Shown here: positions 51,617 to 58,867 of the stretch, one piece after another
Numbering within the stretch: the stretch's first letter is position 1
Layout of the letters: every line of letters starts with the position of its first letter
Assembly: GCF_000376105.1 (NCBI RefSeq)
Contig: NZ_AQWM01000003.1
Location: 62,001 to 126,000, forward strand
Reading direction: 5' to 3'
DNA length: 64,000 bases
Source of the DNA: Asticcacaulis benevestitus DSM 16100 = ATCC BAA-896
Lineage (GTDB): Bacteria; Pseudomonadota; Alphaproteobacteria; Caulobacterales; Caulobacteraceae
Translations under genes and position numbers: made by a program
The notes under the pieces: model-generated
Seen by the model: only the letters and a program-made list of their open reading frames with translations
Told to the model about the DNA's origin: nothing
Database searches by the model: none

Positions 51617-51696
51617 ATAAAATTCCTGCATTTCCGCCTTGCGTCTCAGCCCACCTTACTGTATCAGCACGATAACACGCTACTACAGTGATACAG

Positions 51697-52005
51697 ATGA
51701 CGATTGACACCAAAATCAGCCATACGGATTCCGATGCCCTTGCCGAAGCGTTGCTTGGTATGGAGTCGATCGAAGAGGTGAAAGCCTTCCTCGATGACCT
51801 GTGCACGCCTTCGGAACTGCGGGCCTTCGCCGAACGTTTCAAGGTGGCGCGCCTGCTCGATGAAGGCCAGTTGTCGTATCGCGAAATTTCCGAGCGCACC
51901 GGCGCCAGCACCACCACCGTCACCCGCGTGGCGCGTTTCTTACGGGAAATGCCGCATCAGGGTTACCGGCGGGTGCTGGACAAGATGAAGACTGAAAAGA
52001 AGTAA
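51697..52005 (+). CDS. TrpR-family (YerC/YecD) regulator upstream of hisG
   Basis: A 102-residue helical protein with the Trp repressor fold: EVKAFLDDLCTPSELRAFAE, then the helix-turn-helix LSYREISERTGASTTTVTRV. It is the YerC/YecD type, not true TrpR. In Firmicutes a member of this family (HisR) has been proposed as regulator of histidine genes, and here it lies 80 bp before hisG on the same strand. A role as his repressor is therefore a good guess. The GTG at 51688 is a less likely start. Confidence 0.82.
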   Translation: MTIDTKISHTDSDALAEALLGMESIEEVKAFLDDLCTPSELRAFAERFKVARLLDEGQLSYREISERTGASTTTVTRVARFLREMPHQGYRRVLDKMKTEKK

Positions 52006-52084: not shown

Positions 52085-52966
52085 ATGACTGAACCACGCT
52101 TACGCATCGCTGTTCAAAAATCCGGCCGTCTGGCGGATCGCTCCGGCGAGCTGATCTCCGGCGCGGGCCTGCGCATCATCAAGGGCGCCAACGAACTGCT
52201 GTATCGCATCGAAAACCAGCCGATCGACCTACTGCGCGTGCGTGACGACGACATCCCCACCTTCGTGGCCGATGGCGTCGCCGAACTGGGTATAGTCGGT
52301 TACAATGTGCTGGCCGAGCACTTCCCGGACCGCGATCTGGAAAGCATGATCGTCCAGCGCCTTGGCTTTGGTTCCTGCACGCTGAAAGTGGCCGTTCCGA
52401 ACGATGTCGATTACACCGGCCCGCAGTGGCTGGAAGGCAAGCGTATCGCTACGTCCTACCCAAATATCCTAGGCAAGTGGCTGAAGGACCATGGCGTCAC
52501 GGCGGAAATCGTCGAGATGCGCGGTGCGGTCGAGGTGGCCCCCCGCATGAAGATCGCCCACGCCATCTGCGATCTGGTCTCCACCGGCGCGACCCTCGAA
52601 GCCAACGGCATGAAGGCGACCGACCTGGTGCTGAAATCCGAGGCCGTGCTGATCAAGGCGCCTCATGCCCCCGCGCCCGAACTGGCCCACACCTATGACA
52701 TGCTGCTGCGTCGCTTTGACGGCGTGACGGCCTCCACCGGCGCCAAGTACGTCATGATGAACGCGCCGCGCGTCCATCTTGATGAGATCATCAGGATGAT
52801 CCCCGGCGCCGACGCCCCGACGATCATGCAACTGGCTGGCCGAGAAGACACGGTCGCCGTCCATGCGGTCTGTCAGGAAAACGTGTTCTGGGAGACGCTC
52901 GACAAGCTGAAAGCGGCGGGCGCCTCGGCGATCCTGGTGCTGCCGATTGAAAAGATGATGAAATAG
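52085..52966 (+). CDS. hisG: ATP phosphoribosyltransferase, long form
   Basis: First enzyme of histidine synthesis (ATP + PRPP). It has 293 residues, the length of the long form with a C-terminal ACT-like regulatory domain, so no HisZ is needed. It starts LRIAVQKSGRLADRSGELIS; DIPTFVADGVAELGIVGYNV, the PRPP-binding ICDLVSTGATLEANGMKATD, and a C-terminus AVCQENVFWETLDKLKAAGA are typical. Histidine feedback is expected from the family. Confidence 0.95.
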   Translation: MTEPRLRIAVQKSGRLADRSGELISGAGLRIIKGANELLYRIENQPIDLLRVRDDDIPTFVADGVAELGIVGYNVLAEHFPDRDLESMIVQRLGFGSCTLKVAVPNDVDYTGPQWLEGKRIATSYPNILGKWLKDHGVTAEIVEMRGAVEVAPRMKIAHAICDLVSTGATLEANGMKATDLVLKSEAVLIKAPHAPAPELAHTYDMLLRRFDGVTASTGAKYVMMNAPRVHLDEIIRMIPGADAPTIMQLAGREDTVAVHAVCQENVFWETLDKLKAAGASAILVLPIEKMMK

Positions 52967-53093: not shown

Positions 53094-53104
53094 TCGTAGT
53101 GACA

Positions 53105-54403
53105 ATGAAGACCTTTGTTTGGAAAAATCTCAGCGCGGCGGAACGGAAGGCGGCTTTGGCGCGTCCGGAAAACCGCCGCGATCCGCGCGTGGCCGAGACC
53201 GTGCGCACGATCTTTGATGACGTGGAAACCCGCGGTTTTGCCGCGCTCATCGACTGGTCGGTCAAGCTCGATGGCCACGCCCCGCGCTATGTGAAGCTTG
53301 GCCAAGACACGGTCGATGCCGCCCGCGCACAACTGGCGCCCGAAGACCTGGCCGCTATGGAACTGGCGGTCGACAACGTCCGCGCTTTCCAGCAAGCCGA
53401 GCTGCCGGCCGATGGCCCGCTGATCGCGCCGAAGCCCGGCCTCAGTCTGCAGCGCGTCTATCGCCCGATCACCACCGCCGGCCTCTATGTGCCCGGTGGC
53501 ACCGCGCCCCTGTTCTCGACCCTGATCATGACCGCCGTGCCCGCACTGGTGGCAGGTGTCCCTAACCGCGTCTGCGTTATGCCGCCGGCGCGCGATGGCT
53601 CGATCGCGCCCATGATGATCGCCACGGCCGCCGCGTCCGGACTGGAATCCATGTGGCTCGTCGGCGGCGCGCATGCCATAGCCGGTCTGGCGCTCGGCGC
53701 TTTTGACGGCATCCCCGCCGCCGACAAGCTGTTTGGTCCGGGCAACAAGTATGTCGCCGAAGCCAAGCGTCTGGCCACCGAGCGCGTCTCCGGTCTGGCC
53801 ATCGACATGCCCGCCGGTCCTTCGGAACTGCTGGTCATCGCCGACGATACCGCCAACGTGAAACTGGTCGCCGCCGACCTGCTCAGTCAGGCCGAACACG
53901 ATGCCGACGCTCAGGTCATCCTCGTGGCGCTCTCCGCGGACATTGCCGCCAAAATCGCCGCGGAAGTCGAGGTTCAGGTGTCGCACCTGCCGCGTGAAAC
54001 CATCGCGCGCGCCTCGCTCGAACAGGCCCGGCTGTTCATAGTGGCCTCCATCGCAGAGGCCGCCGAGGTCTCCAATCTCTATGGCCCGGAACACCTGGCC
54101 ATCCAGATCGCCGATGTCGACGTCCTCATCCCGCAACTGACCGCCGCCGGCACCATTTTCGCCGGCGCCTATGCTGCGGAAACCTTCGGGGATTATGCCG
54201 CCGGCCCAAGCCACGTCCTGCCGACCGATGGCGCGGCCCGTGCCTGGGATGGCATCACCGTCCGCTCGTTCCTGACCAGCTTTGTCGTGCAGAAGGCGAC
54301 CCGCGAAGGCGCTGCCGCCATCGCCCCCGCCGCGGCCCGCCTCGCCCGCCTCGAAGGCCTCGAAGCCCACGCGCTTGCGGCTGATTTTCGATTGGAAGTT
54401 TAA
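53105..54403 (+). CDS. hisD: Histidinol dehydrogenase
   Basis: Last two steps of histidine synthesis (histidinol to histidine, NAD). It has 432 residues from ATG 53105. Motifs: YVPGGTAPLFSTLIMTAVPA, KLFGPGNKYVAEAKRL, DMPAGPSELLVIADDTANVK, QAEHDADAQVILV with a zinc ligand, YGPEHLAIQ, and the C-terminal SFLTSFVVQK. The GTG at 53099 is a less likely start. It ends 1 bp before the next ATG. Confidence 0.96.
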   Translation: MKTFVWKNLSAAERKAALARPENRRDPRVAETVRTIFDDVETRGFAALIDWSVKLDGHAPRYVKLGQDTVDAARAQLAPEDLAAMELAVDNVRAFQQAELPADGPLIAPKPGLSLQRVYRPITTAGLYVPGGTAPLFSTLIMTAVPALVAGVPNRVCVMPPARDGSIAPMMIATAAASGLESMWLVGGAHAIAGLALGAFDGIPAADKLFGPGNKYVAEAKRLATERVSGLAIDMPAGPSELLVIADDTANVKLVAADLLSQAEHDADAQVILVALSADIAAKIAAEVEVQVSHLPRETIARASLEQARLFIVASIAEAAEVSNLYGPEHLAIQIADVDVLIPQLTAAGTIFAGAYAAETFGDYAAGPSHVLPTDGAARAWDGITVRSFLTSFVVQKATREGAAAIAPAAARLARLEGLEAHALAADFRLEV

Positions 54404-54404
54404 G

Positions 54405-55889
54405 ATGTTTAACTCCCCCTTCTCTTCCCTGAATGCGTCCGGCGCGGGTCTCGAATCCCTGCCGCCATCGCTGGAGCCCCTGCGCGAGCGCATGGCCGAT
54501 TATTACGGCGTGGAATCGCACCAGTTGCAGGTGACACGCGGCGCCTCGCACGCCATGGAGATACTCATGCGCCGCCTGCGCGTTCATGGCCATGAGTTCG
54601 TCTGGGCCGGGCCTGACCACTATCTCGAAGATCTGTGCAGCGTCTATAATCTCAGCATCCGCAAGCCGCCGGAAAATGCGCCCTTCACCAAGGGCGGCGG
54701 CTTCTGCCTGGTTCACAATCCACGCCAGACCGATGGCAAGGCATGGGACCTTATCGCCGCCCGCACGCTTGCGGTCGATCTCTTCCCGACGATCCTGGTC
54801 ATCGATGAGAGCTATTTCGACGCCTGCACGGCGGACTCCATGGTCGAACTGGCGATCAACGAGCCCAACGTGGTGGTATTGAAAAGCCTGTCCTACCTCT
54901 TCGGCATGGCCGGTGCGCGCGTCGGTGCGCTGATCGCCAACACCAAGACCCTGCAAGGCCTGCTGAAATTCTGCGAACCGCACCCTCTGCCCACGCCCTC
55001 GGTGCGCGCCGCTGAGGCCGCCCTGTCGCCGTCGCGCGCCCTGACCGTGCAAGGCCGCGTCGATATGATCCGCACCGAACAGGCGCGCGTGCGCGAGGCC
55101 TTGTCGCGTTCAAAGCACCTGGAGAGCTTCGATCTCAACGACGGCCCCTTCATGCTGCTGCGCCCCAAGGCCCTGCTGCAAACCCAGACCGCGCTCAAGC
55201 GCTTGGGCCTGGCGCCGCAGGTCACGCCGACCGGCCTGTTACTTGCGCTCGGCGATATCGCCACCAATAACCGCATCCTGAAGGCGCTCGATGTCGCGCC
55301 GGCCGACAAGGCCCCGCGCGTCGGTGAAATCCTGCGTGACACCAAGGAAACCAAGATCTCGGTGCAGGTCAATCTCGACCAGCCCAAGCCGGTCAAGGTC
55401 CACACCGGTGTCGGCTTCTTCGATCACATGCTCGATCAGGTGGCCACGCACGGCGGCTTCTCTCTGCAACTGGCCTGCGAGGGTGATCTGGAGATCGACG
55501 CCCACCACACGGTCGAGGACTGTATGCTGGCCTTCGGTCAGGCGCTGAAGATCGCGCTTGGCGATCGCGTCGGCATGGCGCGCTTCGGCTTTGTGCTGCC
55601 GATGGACGAGACCGAGGCGAAGGTCTCTATCGATCTCGGCGGCCGTCCGTTCTGCGTCTTCAAGGGCGAATTCCAGTCCACGCACATCGGCGATTACCAG
55701 ACCGAGATGACAGCGCACGCCTTCCGCTCACTGTCGGAAACGCTCGGCGCCTCGATCCATGTCGAGGTCAGTGGCGGTAATGATCACCACAAGACGGAAG
55801 CATGCTTCAAAGCGCTCGGCCGCGCCCTGCGTCAGGCCACGCGCGTCGAAGGCGACGCCCTGCCCTCGACCAAGGGAATGCTCGCCTGA
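54405..55889 (+). CDS. hisB: Fusion of a lysine-less HisC-like domain with imidazoleglycerol-phosphate dehydratase HisB
   Basis: A 494-residue protein. Residues 306-494 are a full IGPD domain with GVGFFDHMLDQ (336-345), AHHTVEDC (366-373) and GGNDHHKTEACFKA (457-470), which dehydrates IGP. Residues 1-300 resemble histidinol-phosphate aminotransferase: TRGASHAMEIL, VIDESYFDA (PLP Asp134 and Tyr137 region) and NVVVLKSLSYLFGMAGARVG. At the Schiff-base Lys (usual LRTLSKAFGLAG) there is Tyr164, the NPNNPTG motif is NPRQTDG, and the substrate Arg near the end (LRITIG) is missing (LLLALG). The domain is about 50 residues short. So HisB is probably active and the HisC part not. Confidence 0.9.
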   Translation: MFNSPFSSLNASGAGLESLPPSLEPLRERMADYYGVESHQLQVTRGASHAMEILMRRLRVHGHEFVWAGPDHYLEDLCSVYNLSIRKPPENAPFTKGGGFCLVHNPRQTDGKAWDLIAARTLAVDLFPTILVIDESYFDACTADSMVELAINEPNVVVLKSLSYLFGMAGARVGALIANTKTLQGLLKFCEPHPLPTPSVRAAEAALSPSRALTVQGRVDMIRTEQARVREALSRSKHLESFDLNDGPFMLLRPKALLQTQTALKRLGLAPQVTPTGLLLALGDIATNNRILKALDVAPADKAPRVGEILRDTKETKISVQVNLDQPKPVKVHTGVGFFDHMLDQVATHGGFSLQLACEGDLEIDAHHTVEDCMLAFGQALKIALGDRVGMARFGFVLPMDETEAKVSIDLGGRPFCVFKGEFQSTHIGDYQTEMTAHAFRSLSETLGASIHVEVSGGNDHHKTEACFKALGRALRQATRVEGDALPSTKGMLA

Positions 55890-55932
55890 CCAGGGTCACG
55901 GACCCTGGACCCATTAGTTATTGGATTATAAA

Positions 55933-56544
55933 ATGACCGGAAACGGTGCTGAAATTATTGTCGTCGAAATCGGATGTGCCAATACCGCTTCCGTCCTGTT
56001 CGCACTGGAACGGCTGGGTGCCAAAGCGCGCCTCAGCTCCGATCCGGCGGAAATCGCGGCCGCGACCAAGGTAGTGTTGCCCGGCGTCGGCGCAGCGGGT
56101 TTCGCCATGTCGCGTATACGTGAGTTGGGGCTCTATGACACCATTCGCGGATTGAAAGTGCCGCTGCTCGGTGTCTGTCTCGGCCAGCAACTGCTGTTTG
56201 AAGGGTCAGAAGAAGGCGATGTCGAATGCCTGGGCCTGATCCCCGGCCGGGTCACGAAAATGACCGCTTCTCAGGATTTGGTGGTGCCGCATATGGGCTG
56301 GAACCAGCTTGAGGTCATCGAGACCGATCCGTTGAACGCCGGTGTAAACGATGGCGACTACGCCTACTTCGTTCACAGTTTTGTCTGTCCGGTCAATGAG
56401 TTTACGCTCACAACCAGCACCTACGGCGCCCCGTTCGCCGCCATGGTGCGCAAGGGTAATGTGTTCGGCTGCCAGTTCCACCCGGAGCGCTCCTCGGCCA
56501 CCGGCGCCAGGATTTTAGAGAATTTTCTGCGAGTAAGCCTGTGA
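55933..56544 (+). CDS. hisH: Imidazole glycerol phosphate synthase glutaminase subunit HisH
   Basis: Supplies ammonia from glutamine to HisF. It has 203 residues from the ATG at 55933. The class I glutaminase triad is visible: Cys in LLGVCLGQQLLFEGSEEGD, His and Glu in GCQFHPERSSATGARILENF; the PGVGAAGFAM segment is also typical. The start motif is slightly changed (VVEIGCANTASV instead of IDYGMGNLRSV). Its stop overlaps the hisA GTG by 4 bp. Confidence 0.94.
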   Translation: MTGNGAEIIVVEIGCANTASVLFALERLGAKARLSSDPAEIAAATKVVLPGVGAAGFAMSRIRELGLYDTIRGLKVPLLGVCLGQQLLFEGSEEGDVECLGLIPGRVTKMTASQDLVVPHMGWNQLEVIETDPLNAGVNDGDYAYFVHSFVCPVNEFTLTTSTYGAPFAAMVRKGNVFGCQFHPERSSATGARILENFLRVSL

Positions 56545-57272
56545 TCCTTTACCCCGCCATCGACCTGATCAACGGCGAATGCGTCCGCCTGGCGCAGGGG
56601 CGCTTCGACGCCGTGACCAAATACGATTCCGATCCTTTCAAGCGCCTCAACCTGTTCAATGAAGAGTTTGCCCAATGGGTGCATATCGTTGACCTCGATG
56701 GCGCCAAGGCCGGTTCGCCTCAGCAGCACGAACTGATCGGCCGTCTGGCCAGGGCGTCACGCGCCAAGATCCAGAGCGGCGGCGGGGTGCGCTCCCGCGA
56801 ACACGTCCAGACCCTGCTTGATGCCGGCGTCTCGGCGGTCGTGGTCGGCTCGGCGGCGGTAAAGAACCCCGAAGAGGTGCGCGGCTGGCTGCGTGATTTC
56901 GGTAAGGACCGCATCACCCTGGCGCTGGATGTGCTGCCGACAGCCGATGGTGATTTCGACGCCGCCCTGCATGGCTGGGTCGAAGGCTCAGGTATCTCGC
57001 TGTGGGATGTGCTCGACTATTATCCCTTCGGCGTGGCGCAGCGCATTCTGGTTACCGACGTGTCGCGCGACGGCATGCTGATGGGCCCGAACATGGACTT
57101 GATGAAGGCCCTGCGCAAAAAGCGTCCCGACCTCGAAATTCAGGCGTCCGGTGGCGTGAAATCGGTCGAAGACCTGTATGATCTCAAGGCGCTGGGCGTA
57201 CATGGCGCGATCGTTGGCAAGGCGATTTACGAAGGTCTCATAGACCTGAAAGCAGCGCTTAATGTCGGATAA
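56541..57272 (+). CDS. hisA: ProFAR isomerase HisA
   Basis: Amadori isomerase of the histidine pathway, a 243-residue beta/alpha barrel. The catalytic Asp residues are in [20 protein letters not shown] (start) and [19 protein letters not shown]. Phosphate-binding loops: [20 protein letters not shown] and [20 protein letters not shown]. It starts with GTG, overlapping hisH by 4 bp. Confidence 0.95.
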
Positions 57273-57359
57273 GCTTCGCTTCCCGCCCTTAAGGCCATCC
57301 TTTTCTTATCGCGCTTTTGAGTCCAAAAAGTGCGTTACACTTTTTGGAAAGCGCTCGTA

Positions 57360-58142
57360 ATGTTGGCTAAAAGTACACTGGCACGCCGCATCATCCCCTG
57401 TCTCGACGTCAAGGACGGCAAGGTCGTCAAGGGCGTGCAGTTTGTCGGCCACGAAATTCTCGGTGACGCCGTCGATATGGCCCTGCGCTACCGTGATGAA
57501 GGCGCGGACGAACTGGTGCTTTATGACATCACGGCCTCCAGCGAAGGCCGCACGGTCGATTACAACTGGGTGTCGCAGATCGCCCGCGCACTCGACATTC
57601 CGTTCTGCGTGGCCGGCGGCATCCGCAGTGCTGAGCAGGCCGTGAAATGTCTGAACAGCGGTGCCGACAAGGTGTCGATCAATTCCCCGGCGCTGGAACG
57701 TCCTGACCTGATCAATGAACTGGCCGAGATGGCCGGATCACAATGCGTGGTGGTCGGGATCGACAGCCGCGAAACCGATGGCGACTATTACGTCCACCAG
57801 TATTCCGGTGATCCGGACAAGATCCGCACGGTGGGGCGTCGCACGCTCGACTGGGTGGTCGAGGCCAAACAGCGTGGCGCCGGCGAGATCGTGCTCAACT
57901 GCATGAACCAGGACGGCGTGCGCAAGGGCTATGATATCAAGCAGTTGCGTCTGGTGCGCGACCTGATCGACATTCCTCTGGTGGCATCCGGTGGCGCTGG
58001 TGCGCCGGAGCATTTTGAAGACGTGTTCAATCAGGCCGACGTGTCCGGTGCGCTGGCCGCCAGCGTGTTTCATAAGAAAATCATTGCCATTCCGGATTTG
58101 AAGCGTGATCTTCGCGCCGCTGGAATTGTGGTACGACTGTAA
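57360..58142 (+). CDS. hisF: Imidazole glycerol phosphate synthase cyclase subunit HisF
   Basis: Cyclase that with HisH makes IGP and AICAR. It has 260 residues from ATG 57360 ([20 protein letters not shown], catalytic Asp). Other motifs: [60 protein letters not shown] (second Asp) and [14 protein letters not shown]. An 87-bp gap from hisA is the largest inside this part of the operon. Confidence 0.96.
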
Positions 58143-58212
58143 GCAAGACACTCCACCACCACGCCGCATGTGCGGCGTGGTTCCCCTCCCCATCAGAGAT
58201 GAGGAGGTATAA
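58143..58212. repeat. Dispersed GC-rich hairpin repeat, copy F, supplying the hisIE ribosome binding site
   Basis: TCCACCACC, a perfect internal stem ACGCCGCA-TG-TGCGGCGT, GGTTCCCCTCCCC, then ATCAGAGATGAGGAGGTATAA. Same plan as 5051 and 52005 with a different internal stem. Its right end contains AGGAGG, 9 bp before the hisIE ATG at 58217, so the repeat forms the ribosome binding site. Confidence 0.75.
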
Positions 58213-58216
58213 GAGA

Positions 58217-58867
58217 ATGAACATGCCCGAAGCTCACAAACTGCCGAACGCCCTGACCATCAAGGATATCGACCAGATCGATTTCGCCAAGGAAGGCGGA
58301 CTGGTGCCCGCTGTCGTGCAGCACGCCGACACGCTCCAGGTGCTGATGCTCGGCTATATGAACGCCGAAGCGCTGAAAGCCACCCTGCAAGGCGGCCTCG
58401 TCACCTTCTGGTCGCGCTCGAAAAACCGCCTGTGGAGGAAGGGCGAGACCTCCGGCGACACGCTGGAGCTCGACCACATCCTGACCGATTGCGACGAGGA
58501 CGCCCTGCTGGTCTATGCCCGCCCCAAAGGCCCGACCTGCCACACCAAGACAACCTCCTGCTTTGGCACCGAGACCGCGCCCGGTATCGGCTTCATGGGC
58601 CATCTGGCGCATGTGGTGAAGGATCGCGCCAAGGCGCCGCCCGCCGATAGCTATACCGCCCGCCTGATGCAGAAGGGCATCGCCAAGATCGCCCAGAAGG
58701 TTGGCGAGGAAGGTCTGGAGACGGCCCTGGCCGGTCGCGCCGGTGATCTCGACGAACTGCACAACGAAGCCGCCGACCTGCTCTATCACCTCGAAGTGCT
58801 GTTGATGGCGCGCGACACCAGGCTGGAAAACGTGCTCGAAACCTTACGCGAACGCCACCGCGGCTAG
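58217..58867 (+). CDS. hisIE: Bifunctional phosphoribosyl-AMP cyclohydrolase / phosphoribosyl-ATP pyrophosphatase
   Basis: Steps two and three of histidine synthesis in one 216-residue protein. The HisI part (about 1-120) has MLGYMNAEALKATLQGGLVT, FWSRSKNRLWRKGETSGDTL and the zinc Cys/His in GPTCHTKTTSCFG. The HisE part (about 130-216) has SYTARLMQKGIAKIAQKVGE followed by EGLETALAG and NEAADLLYHLEVLL. The ATG at 58217 follows AGGAGG from the repeat. Last gene of the his run. Confidence 0.95.
   Translation: MNMPEAHKLPNALTIKDIDQIDFAKEGGLVPAVVQHADTLQVLMLGYMNAEALKATLQGGLVTFWSRSKNRLWRKGETSGDTLELDHILTDCDEDALLVYARPKGPTCHTKTTSCFGTETAPGIGFMGHLAHVVKDRAKAPPADSYTARLMQKGIAKIAQKVGEEGLETALAGRAGDLDELHNEAADLLYHLEVLLMARDTRLENVLETLRERHRG

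Follow-up and report, generated by a model that had tools for sequence, protein, structure and literature searches.

A HisC-fold domain without catalytic residues is fused to HisB in Asticcacaulis and evolves under purifying selection

Fusions among histidine biosynthesis genes are well known. The portion of Fani et al. (2007; PMC1963479) used here names hisNB, hisIE, hisHF, hisIED, and the hisA/hisF elongation, which, like the gene described below, unite genes of the pathway; neither hisC-hisB nor hisD-hisB is among these five fusions, and hisC is not named there as a fused gene. The gammaproteobacterial bifunctional HisB (HisNB) similarly joins IGPD to an N-terminal enzyme domain for another pathway step, but that domain is a HAD phosphatase, whereas in the gene studied here it has a HisC fold and lacks catalytic residues. 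PLP-enzyme homologues that lack the PLP lysine and serve another role also have a precedent in LCB1 of serine palmitoyltransferase, as described in PMC3794620. LCB1, however, forms a subunit of its own alongside an active paralogue, whereas the dead domain considered here is fused to a different enzyme. In a literature search of titles and abstract openings, neither a HisC-HisB or HisD-HisB fusion nor a lysine-less HisC was described.

Arguments about how an enzyme domain that has lost its activity comes to be indispensable mostly start from endpoints. In the present case, related genera retain the lysine-bearing fusion, genomes with both copies, a dead but constrained domain, a short leftover, and complete loss. 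Cells that lose the partner enzyme, HisB, should show a clear-cut phenotype, namely failure to grow unless histidine is supplied, and it can be tested directly whether the pseudoenzyme domain serves a need or is only held in place by its reading frame.

The window, i.e. the whole 64,000-nucleotide stretch of the Asticcacaulis benevestitus genome that was analysed, carries a his operon on the forward strand, in the order hisG (long form; 52085..52966; TIGR00070, TIGR03455), hisD (53099..54403; TIGR00069, 424 bits), the HisC-fold/HisB fusion gene (54405..55889), hisH (55921..56544; TIGR01855), hisA (56541..57272; TIGR00007), hisF (57330..58142; TIGR00735; start codon uncertain), and hisIE (58199..58867; NF002747). 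Each of the six his neighbours of the fusion gene scores above the cut-off of its own NCBIfam model, and a single base separates the hisD stop from the ATG of the fusion. Translation gives the open reading frame, frame, and coordinates already reported for this gene in the initial annotation, with 494 amino acids plus a stop, and Pfam and NCBIfam searches confirm the fusion of a HisC-like domain to HisB proposed there. Specifically, Aminotran_1_2 matches residues 101–257 (62.8 bits, cut-off 19.7) and IGPD (PF00475) residues 334–475 (190 bits, cut-off 27).

The two halves score very differently against the models of the enzymes they resemble. The HisB domain (residues 305–494; 55317..55886, forward strand) belongs to IGPD, with PF00475 above its cut-off and the His/Glu metal motifs kept: H341, H349, HHTVED, DHHKTE, and K469 are all there, and the motif residues are invariant in 14 aligned sequences save V370, D460, K463, and T464. 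This domain passes NF002111 (239.1 bits, cut-off 231), and its top NCBIfam score is to the bifunctional HisB model (280.8 bits), below that model's cut-off of 443. A HisN-type phosphatase for the next step lies elsewhere in the genome (TIGR02067, 290.9 vs. 275.15 bits). By contrast, the HisC-fold domain (residues 1–300; 54405..55304, forward strand) reaches 92.8 bits against TIGR01141, far below the cut-off of 276.55. Its first residue falls at the position of the HisC ANENP motif, and the N-terminal arm is therefore absent.

Alignment with E. coli HisC (1fg3) places Tyr164 (54894..54896) on the lysine of LRTLSK, as the initial annotation had it. In the cofactor loop, the NPNNPTG-type motif is replaced by NPRQTDG (residues 105–111; 54717..54737), so that NPTG reads QTDG and the NPTG asparagine corresponds to Gln108; the C-terminal substrate arginine corresponds to Leu279, and both of these losses had been correctly recognised. 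Site labels follow the residue numbers and roles of E. coli HisC. The Asp and Tyr positions of VIDESY (residues 132–137; 54798..54815), which contact PLP in HisC, are kept, as is Arg172 (54918..54920), at the position of the PLP-phosphate arginine (Arg222 of E. coli HisC). All of these sites lie on the forward strand.

The same pattern extends across the genus. Among the 24 Asticcacaulis fusions, aligned to 23 lysine-bearing fusions, the Schiff-base site is Phe in 13, Tyr in 11, and Lys in none; the position is thus aromatic in 24/24, with 2 Tyr/Phe changes along the tree. The NPTG asparagine is absent in 24/24 (Gln 11, Met 8, Leu 5), as are the Asp of GAD (Ser 23, Thr 1) and the C-terminal arginine (Leu 15, Ile 9). 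Other PLP-site positions are kept, namely the ring Asp (24/24), the Tyr (23/24), the phosphate Ser (24/24), and the Arg (23/24). The 19 aligned lysine-less fusions of group g3, which is probably Brevundimonas and is so named below, have Leu at the lysine site, and they keep instead the positions of the substrate Arg (18/19) and Tyr55 (19/19).

The fold can be predicted with confidence. An AlphaFold2 model of residues 1–305 (26-row alignment) has a mean pLDDT of 86.3 and a pTM of 0.85, and its closest PDB matches are the HisC structures 1gey, 1gew, 7szp, 1fg3, and 1gex (TM by query 0.78–0.83). The assignment to fold type I aminotransferases refers to this predicted model of residues 1–305 only; the model of the full-length fusion has a pTM of 0.59, too low to fix the domain arrangement. 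Based on the computed homology, missing residues, and predicted fold, the domain in the window is a HisC-fold domain without catalytic residues. It shares with HisC (TIGR01141; E. coli 1fg3/1gey) the predicted fold, clear sequence homology, and the Asp/Tyr/Ser/Arg positions of the PLP site, and it differs in having no Schiff-base lysine, NPTG asparagine, C-terminal substrate arginine, or N-terminal arm; it is thus placed outside HisC by these catalytic residues and by its TIGR01141 score. Judged from sequence comparisons, with enzyme homology, lost catalytic residues, and retention under selection, it would qualify as a pseudoenzyme.

Could the domain still be an enzyme, with Lys160 (54882..54884, forward strand) or another residue standing in for the lysine? 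Lys160 is invariant in 24/24 Asticcacaulis, and a position in the PLP site had been named as the finding that would overturn the noncatalytic reading. The alignment, however, puts it on the Arg of RTLSK, four residues before the Schiff-base lysine, and every other fusion in that comparison (23 lysine-bearing, 19 from Brevundimonas, and 13 further lysine-less ones) has Arg there. The NPTG asparagine and substrate arginine are lost as well. Lys160 is therefore not favoured as a replacement lysine, and we regard a surviving enzymatic activity as very improbable.

Another putative function for the emptied pocket is that of a ligand sensor or relay, which would tune HisB by binding histidine, a phosphate of the pathway, or non-covalent PLP. 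The phosphate Ser and Arg, ring Asp, and Tyr positions kept in Asticcacaulis would suit such a sensor, as would the substrate Arg and Tyr55 positions of Brevundimonas. Against it, the NPTG Asn, GAD Asp, and substrate Arg are gone in Asticcacaulis, and the pocket residues that are kept differ between the two genera, so that we find a sensor improbable.

If the fused domain is inactive, histidinol-phosphate aminotransferase must be supplied by another gene, and the expectation that a real hisC lies elsewhere was borne out. The genome of the window encodes two standalone HisC with the SK motif, scoring 290.6 and 285.9 bits against the TIGR01141 cut-off of 276.55. One of these complete copies (L064; C56, 17401–18420) sits close to other aminotransferase-family matches. 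The other 23 fusion-bearing Asticcacaulis each have one HisC above the cut-off.

We looked for standalone HisC in 62 of 93 lysine-less genomes (47/56 with a recognisable domain, 11/17 with leftovers, and 4/20 with HisD-HisB) and in 23/23 lysine-bearing genomes. It scores above the cut-off in 61/62 of the former, the sole exception, G127, reaching 275.6 against 276.55 bits. Among the lysine-bearing genomes, a further HisC passes the cut-off in 6/23, and in 17/23 none does. The association between lysine loss and a second hisC gives a Fisher P of 3e-13 on raw counts that ignore ancestry and score G127 as having a copy; once ancestry is counted, it is represented by 1 independent pair on supported branches and 5 on all branches, too few to support it statistically. 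The redundancy pattern fits a takeover of step 7 by a separate HisC.

In several lysine-less genomes, a complete standalone hisC is located ~2.7 kb downstream of HisB (G033:C6:70590, G132:C11:48687, G127:C37:105516, G067:C17:59829, and G110:C23:18633), as though the gene had joined the his operon close to its end. Within the Brevundimonas group, one genome carries a full lysine-bearing fusion (L107; G144:C1:756445–758088) together with a standalone HisC.

The same order also contains fusions that bear the lysine and others at different stages of loss, which the initial annotation did not recognise. A search of 61 genomes, including that of the window, reveals the fusion in 24/25 Asticcacaulis genomes, again including that of the window; the 25th (G004, 87% complete) has no HisB match. 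The genus name rests on G011, one of these genomes, which is identical to plasmid pASTEX01 of A. excentricus CB 48 over 1601 bases. An order-wide search of 249 genomes used a lysine-bearing fusion as query, with matches listed down to E ~1e-46, weaker than the fusion-type matches. Together they yield 117 Caulobacterales genomes with fusion-type HisB, 93 from the order-wide search and 24 (23 Asticcacaulis and G033) from the search of 61 genomes. A full HisC domain with the lysine is found in 23 of these, 56 have lost the lysine and retain a recognisable domain, 17 have short leftovers, 20 have HisD-HisB, and 1 is cut by a contig end.

The 56 lysine-less genomes with a domain comprise 24 Asticcacaulis, 19 Brevundimonas, 8 f3 g26, 2 f3 g35, G033, G127, and G132. 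Pfam returns strong Aminotran_1_2 plus IGPD on the full-length fusions L194, L195, and L212, weak Aminotran_1_2 plus IGPD on G033 and G127 (22.7 and 21.3 bits, cut-off 19.7), IGPD only on two of the leftovers, and Histidinol_dh plus IGPD on two HisD-HisB proteins. The leftover extensions measure 187–222 residues in the 17 genomes, and they are taken to descend from HisC on the basis of their place in the gene. Several genomes are left out or doubtful: G216 is not included, the gene of G202 lies in two parts on separate contigs, that of G278 runs off its contig, and G255, with an interrupted hisD frame, is counted as HisD-HisB with doubt. HisD fused straight to HisB, with no HisC domain, occurs in f4 g31 and part of f3 g26, e.g. 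at L181:456–2570 (G083) and, on the minus strand, L157:298–2199 (G067).

Outside Caulobacterales, a search of 385 genomes of the class recovers 8 full-length fusions in 5 alphaproteobacterial families, all with the lysine (8/8), though the strict cut-off and intact query used there may have passed over degraded fusions; in a ninth (G367) the contig stops short of the lysine site. In one alphaproteobacterial MAG, the HisC-HisB fusion comes immediately after a gene that looks HisG-like by sight, with no hisD between (L195:2958–5482). A lysine-bearing HisC-HisB fusion is also present in a Bacteroidales MAG (L212:3851–5494), perhaps as an independent fusion.

In a HisB tree, 11/12 order HisB taken as unfused (9 with ≤30 in-frame residues upstream and 3 with longer open frames) group together in a single clade that excludes the fusion-type HisB. 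One of the two main groups, however, includes two sequences from gammaproteobacterial MAGs in which hisC stands apart from hisB, and one or more fusion origins are therefore possible. The best tree has 5 changes of lysine state, although the data do not reject a single clade for the lysine-less rows outside family f4 and genome G132 (P = 0.144). As its most likely ancestor, the domain has a HisC-HisB fusion, covering steps 6 and 7, that still bears the lysine in 23/117 genomes.

Given this gradation, we compared selection on the domain with that on working genes. Across 24 Asticcacaulis, dN/dS (ω) is 0.062 for the dead domain, 0.081 for standalone hisC, and 0.042 for HisB, with 0.052 for hisD in 23 genomes. 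The log-likelihood of the domain is −10216 with ω free and −11589 at ω = 1 (kappa fixed too), a difference of 1373. An ω of 0.062 is far from 1 and rules out simple neutral decay in Asticcacaulis. The same direction is seen in three sub-clades, where the domain has ω of 0.057, 0.022, and 0.039 against 0.069, 0.041, and 0.055 for hisC. We dropped the stronger proposal that the domain is under tighter constraint than catalytic hisC, because the ranges from 40 bootstraps overlap (0.050–0.075 for the domain and 0.068–0.094 for hisC) and the protein rate over the whole genus is above that of hisC; constraint on the Asticcacaulis domain is comparable to that on working hisC by dN/dS, about as strong and not uniformly stronger. 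The initial view of a retained noncatalytic domain, rather than free decay, agrees with these values.

A slower kind of decay deserves separate consideration. A domain without any job could be trapped, since frameshifts and stops would remove HisB, and it would then shrink through in-frame losses only, ending in HisD-HisB. Such a process would leave the graded extensions seen in relatives (about 272–310, 222, and 187–222 residues, then none), and short leftovers are indeed less constrained, with ω of 0.185 in 13 f4 genomes against 0.044 for their HisB; by comparison, lysine-bearing f4 fusions (n = 15) have ω of 0.070 in the HisC part and 0.040 in HisB. Protein change across the genus is likewise faster in the domain than in hisC, with an LG tree length of 3.15 vs. 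2.06 (about 1.5 times) and 33% vs. 53% invariant columns.

Slow decay would also account for the open frame without any function. No start codon in codons 230–341 is common to the genus (24 genomes), the best candidates being residue 250 (13/24) and residue 280 (12/24), and a frameshift or stop in the domain would therefore as a rule remove HisB too. The intact frame and IGPD motifs stressed in the initial annotation hold as observations and fail as an argument for function, because HisB lies downstream in the same open reading frame with no conserved internal start.

The strength of selection in Asticcacaulis, however, speaks against a jobless domain, both in the low ω and the likelihood difference and in its placement: the lowest 50-codon interval, codons 151–200 of the gap-free alignment (ω = 0.024), surrounds the lost lysine, making the region around the dead site the most constrained part of the domain. 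Moreover, in 17 close pairs, some sharing a genome, the domain is no faster than hisC (summed dN 0.78 vs. 1.00; summed dS 9.2 vs. 10.5). We read the Asticcacaulis domain as having diverged more early on and being tightly constrained now, and we consider slow decay unlikely. The picture is not uniform among genera. In Brevundimonas, ω is 0.096 for the domain against 0.038 for HisB (19 genomes), and, in 10 genomes, the domain is less constrained than hisC (0.080 vs. 0.067; tree length 10.5 vs. 4.1).

A predicted fold under strong purifying selection implies that the domain does something selection sees. Our preferred reading, which we hold to be somewhat probable, is that it was formerly the HisC half of a bifunctional enzyme and is now a pseudoenzyme kept because the HisB 24-mer depends on it to fold, stay soluble, or assemble. 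In the lysine-bearing form, step 6 by HisB yields imidazole acetol phosphate, which the fused HisC presumably transaminates in step 7. A separate HisC may then have taken over step 7 in the Asticcacaulis lineage, after which the fused copy would have lost the N-terminal arm, the lysine, the NPTG asparagine, and the substrate arginine. The vacated cofactor site may be filled by the aromatic side chain that replaces the lysine. We infer the order of these events, the aromatic filling, and the structural role alike.

It seems that this lineage produces HisB solely in fused form, so the domain must fold or risk damaging HisB, and it is on this ground that a need for folding, solubility, or assembly is proposed. 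According to PMC10978614, the IGPD family assembles as a 24-mer, and in a plant IGPD the outer surface of this assembly is formed by the N-terminal sheet. By analogy, 24 cofactor-free HisC folds would sit outside the HisB 24-mer and decorate its shell. Such a need cannot be general, since relatives have HisB without the domain (20 HisD-HisB and 17 with a leftover only), and a folding constraint alone would lower ω too.

Alternatively, the domain might be a putative docking module for another His enzyme, for instance by pairing with standalone HisC as LCB1 does with LCB2. HisC is a dimer and uses the product of HisB, and 32 residues are invariant in Asticcacaulis and variable in the lysine-bearing fused HisC. 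Other HisC-like genes of the genus, where they match the domain, nevertheless share ~25–35% identity over part of its length, and docking appears quite improbable to us.

Beyond the structural role that we prefer, we give an even chance to a broader proposition: the catalytic domain of a bifunctional enzyme would have become a noncatalytic component, maintained by selection, of the enzyme it once partnered, and its cofactor site would have been remodelled around an aromatic residue in Asticcacaulis or a leucine in Brevundimonas. All stages, from the ancestor with its lysine through redundancy, pseudoenzyme, and leftover to outright deletion, would then survive within one order, and they may have arisen on several independent occasions.

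Just upstream of hisG, the window also encodes a Trp-repressor family protein (51688–52005; PF01371, 82.6 bits), which is a possible candidate for the regulator of the his operon.
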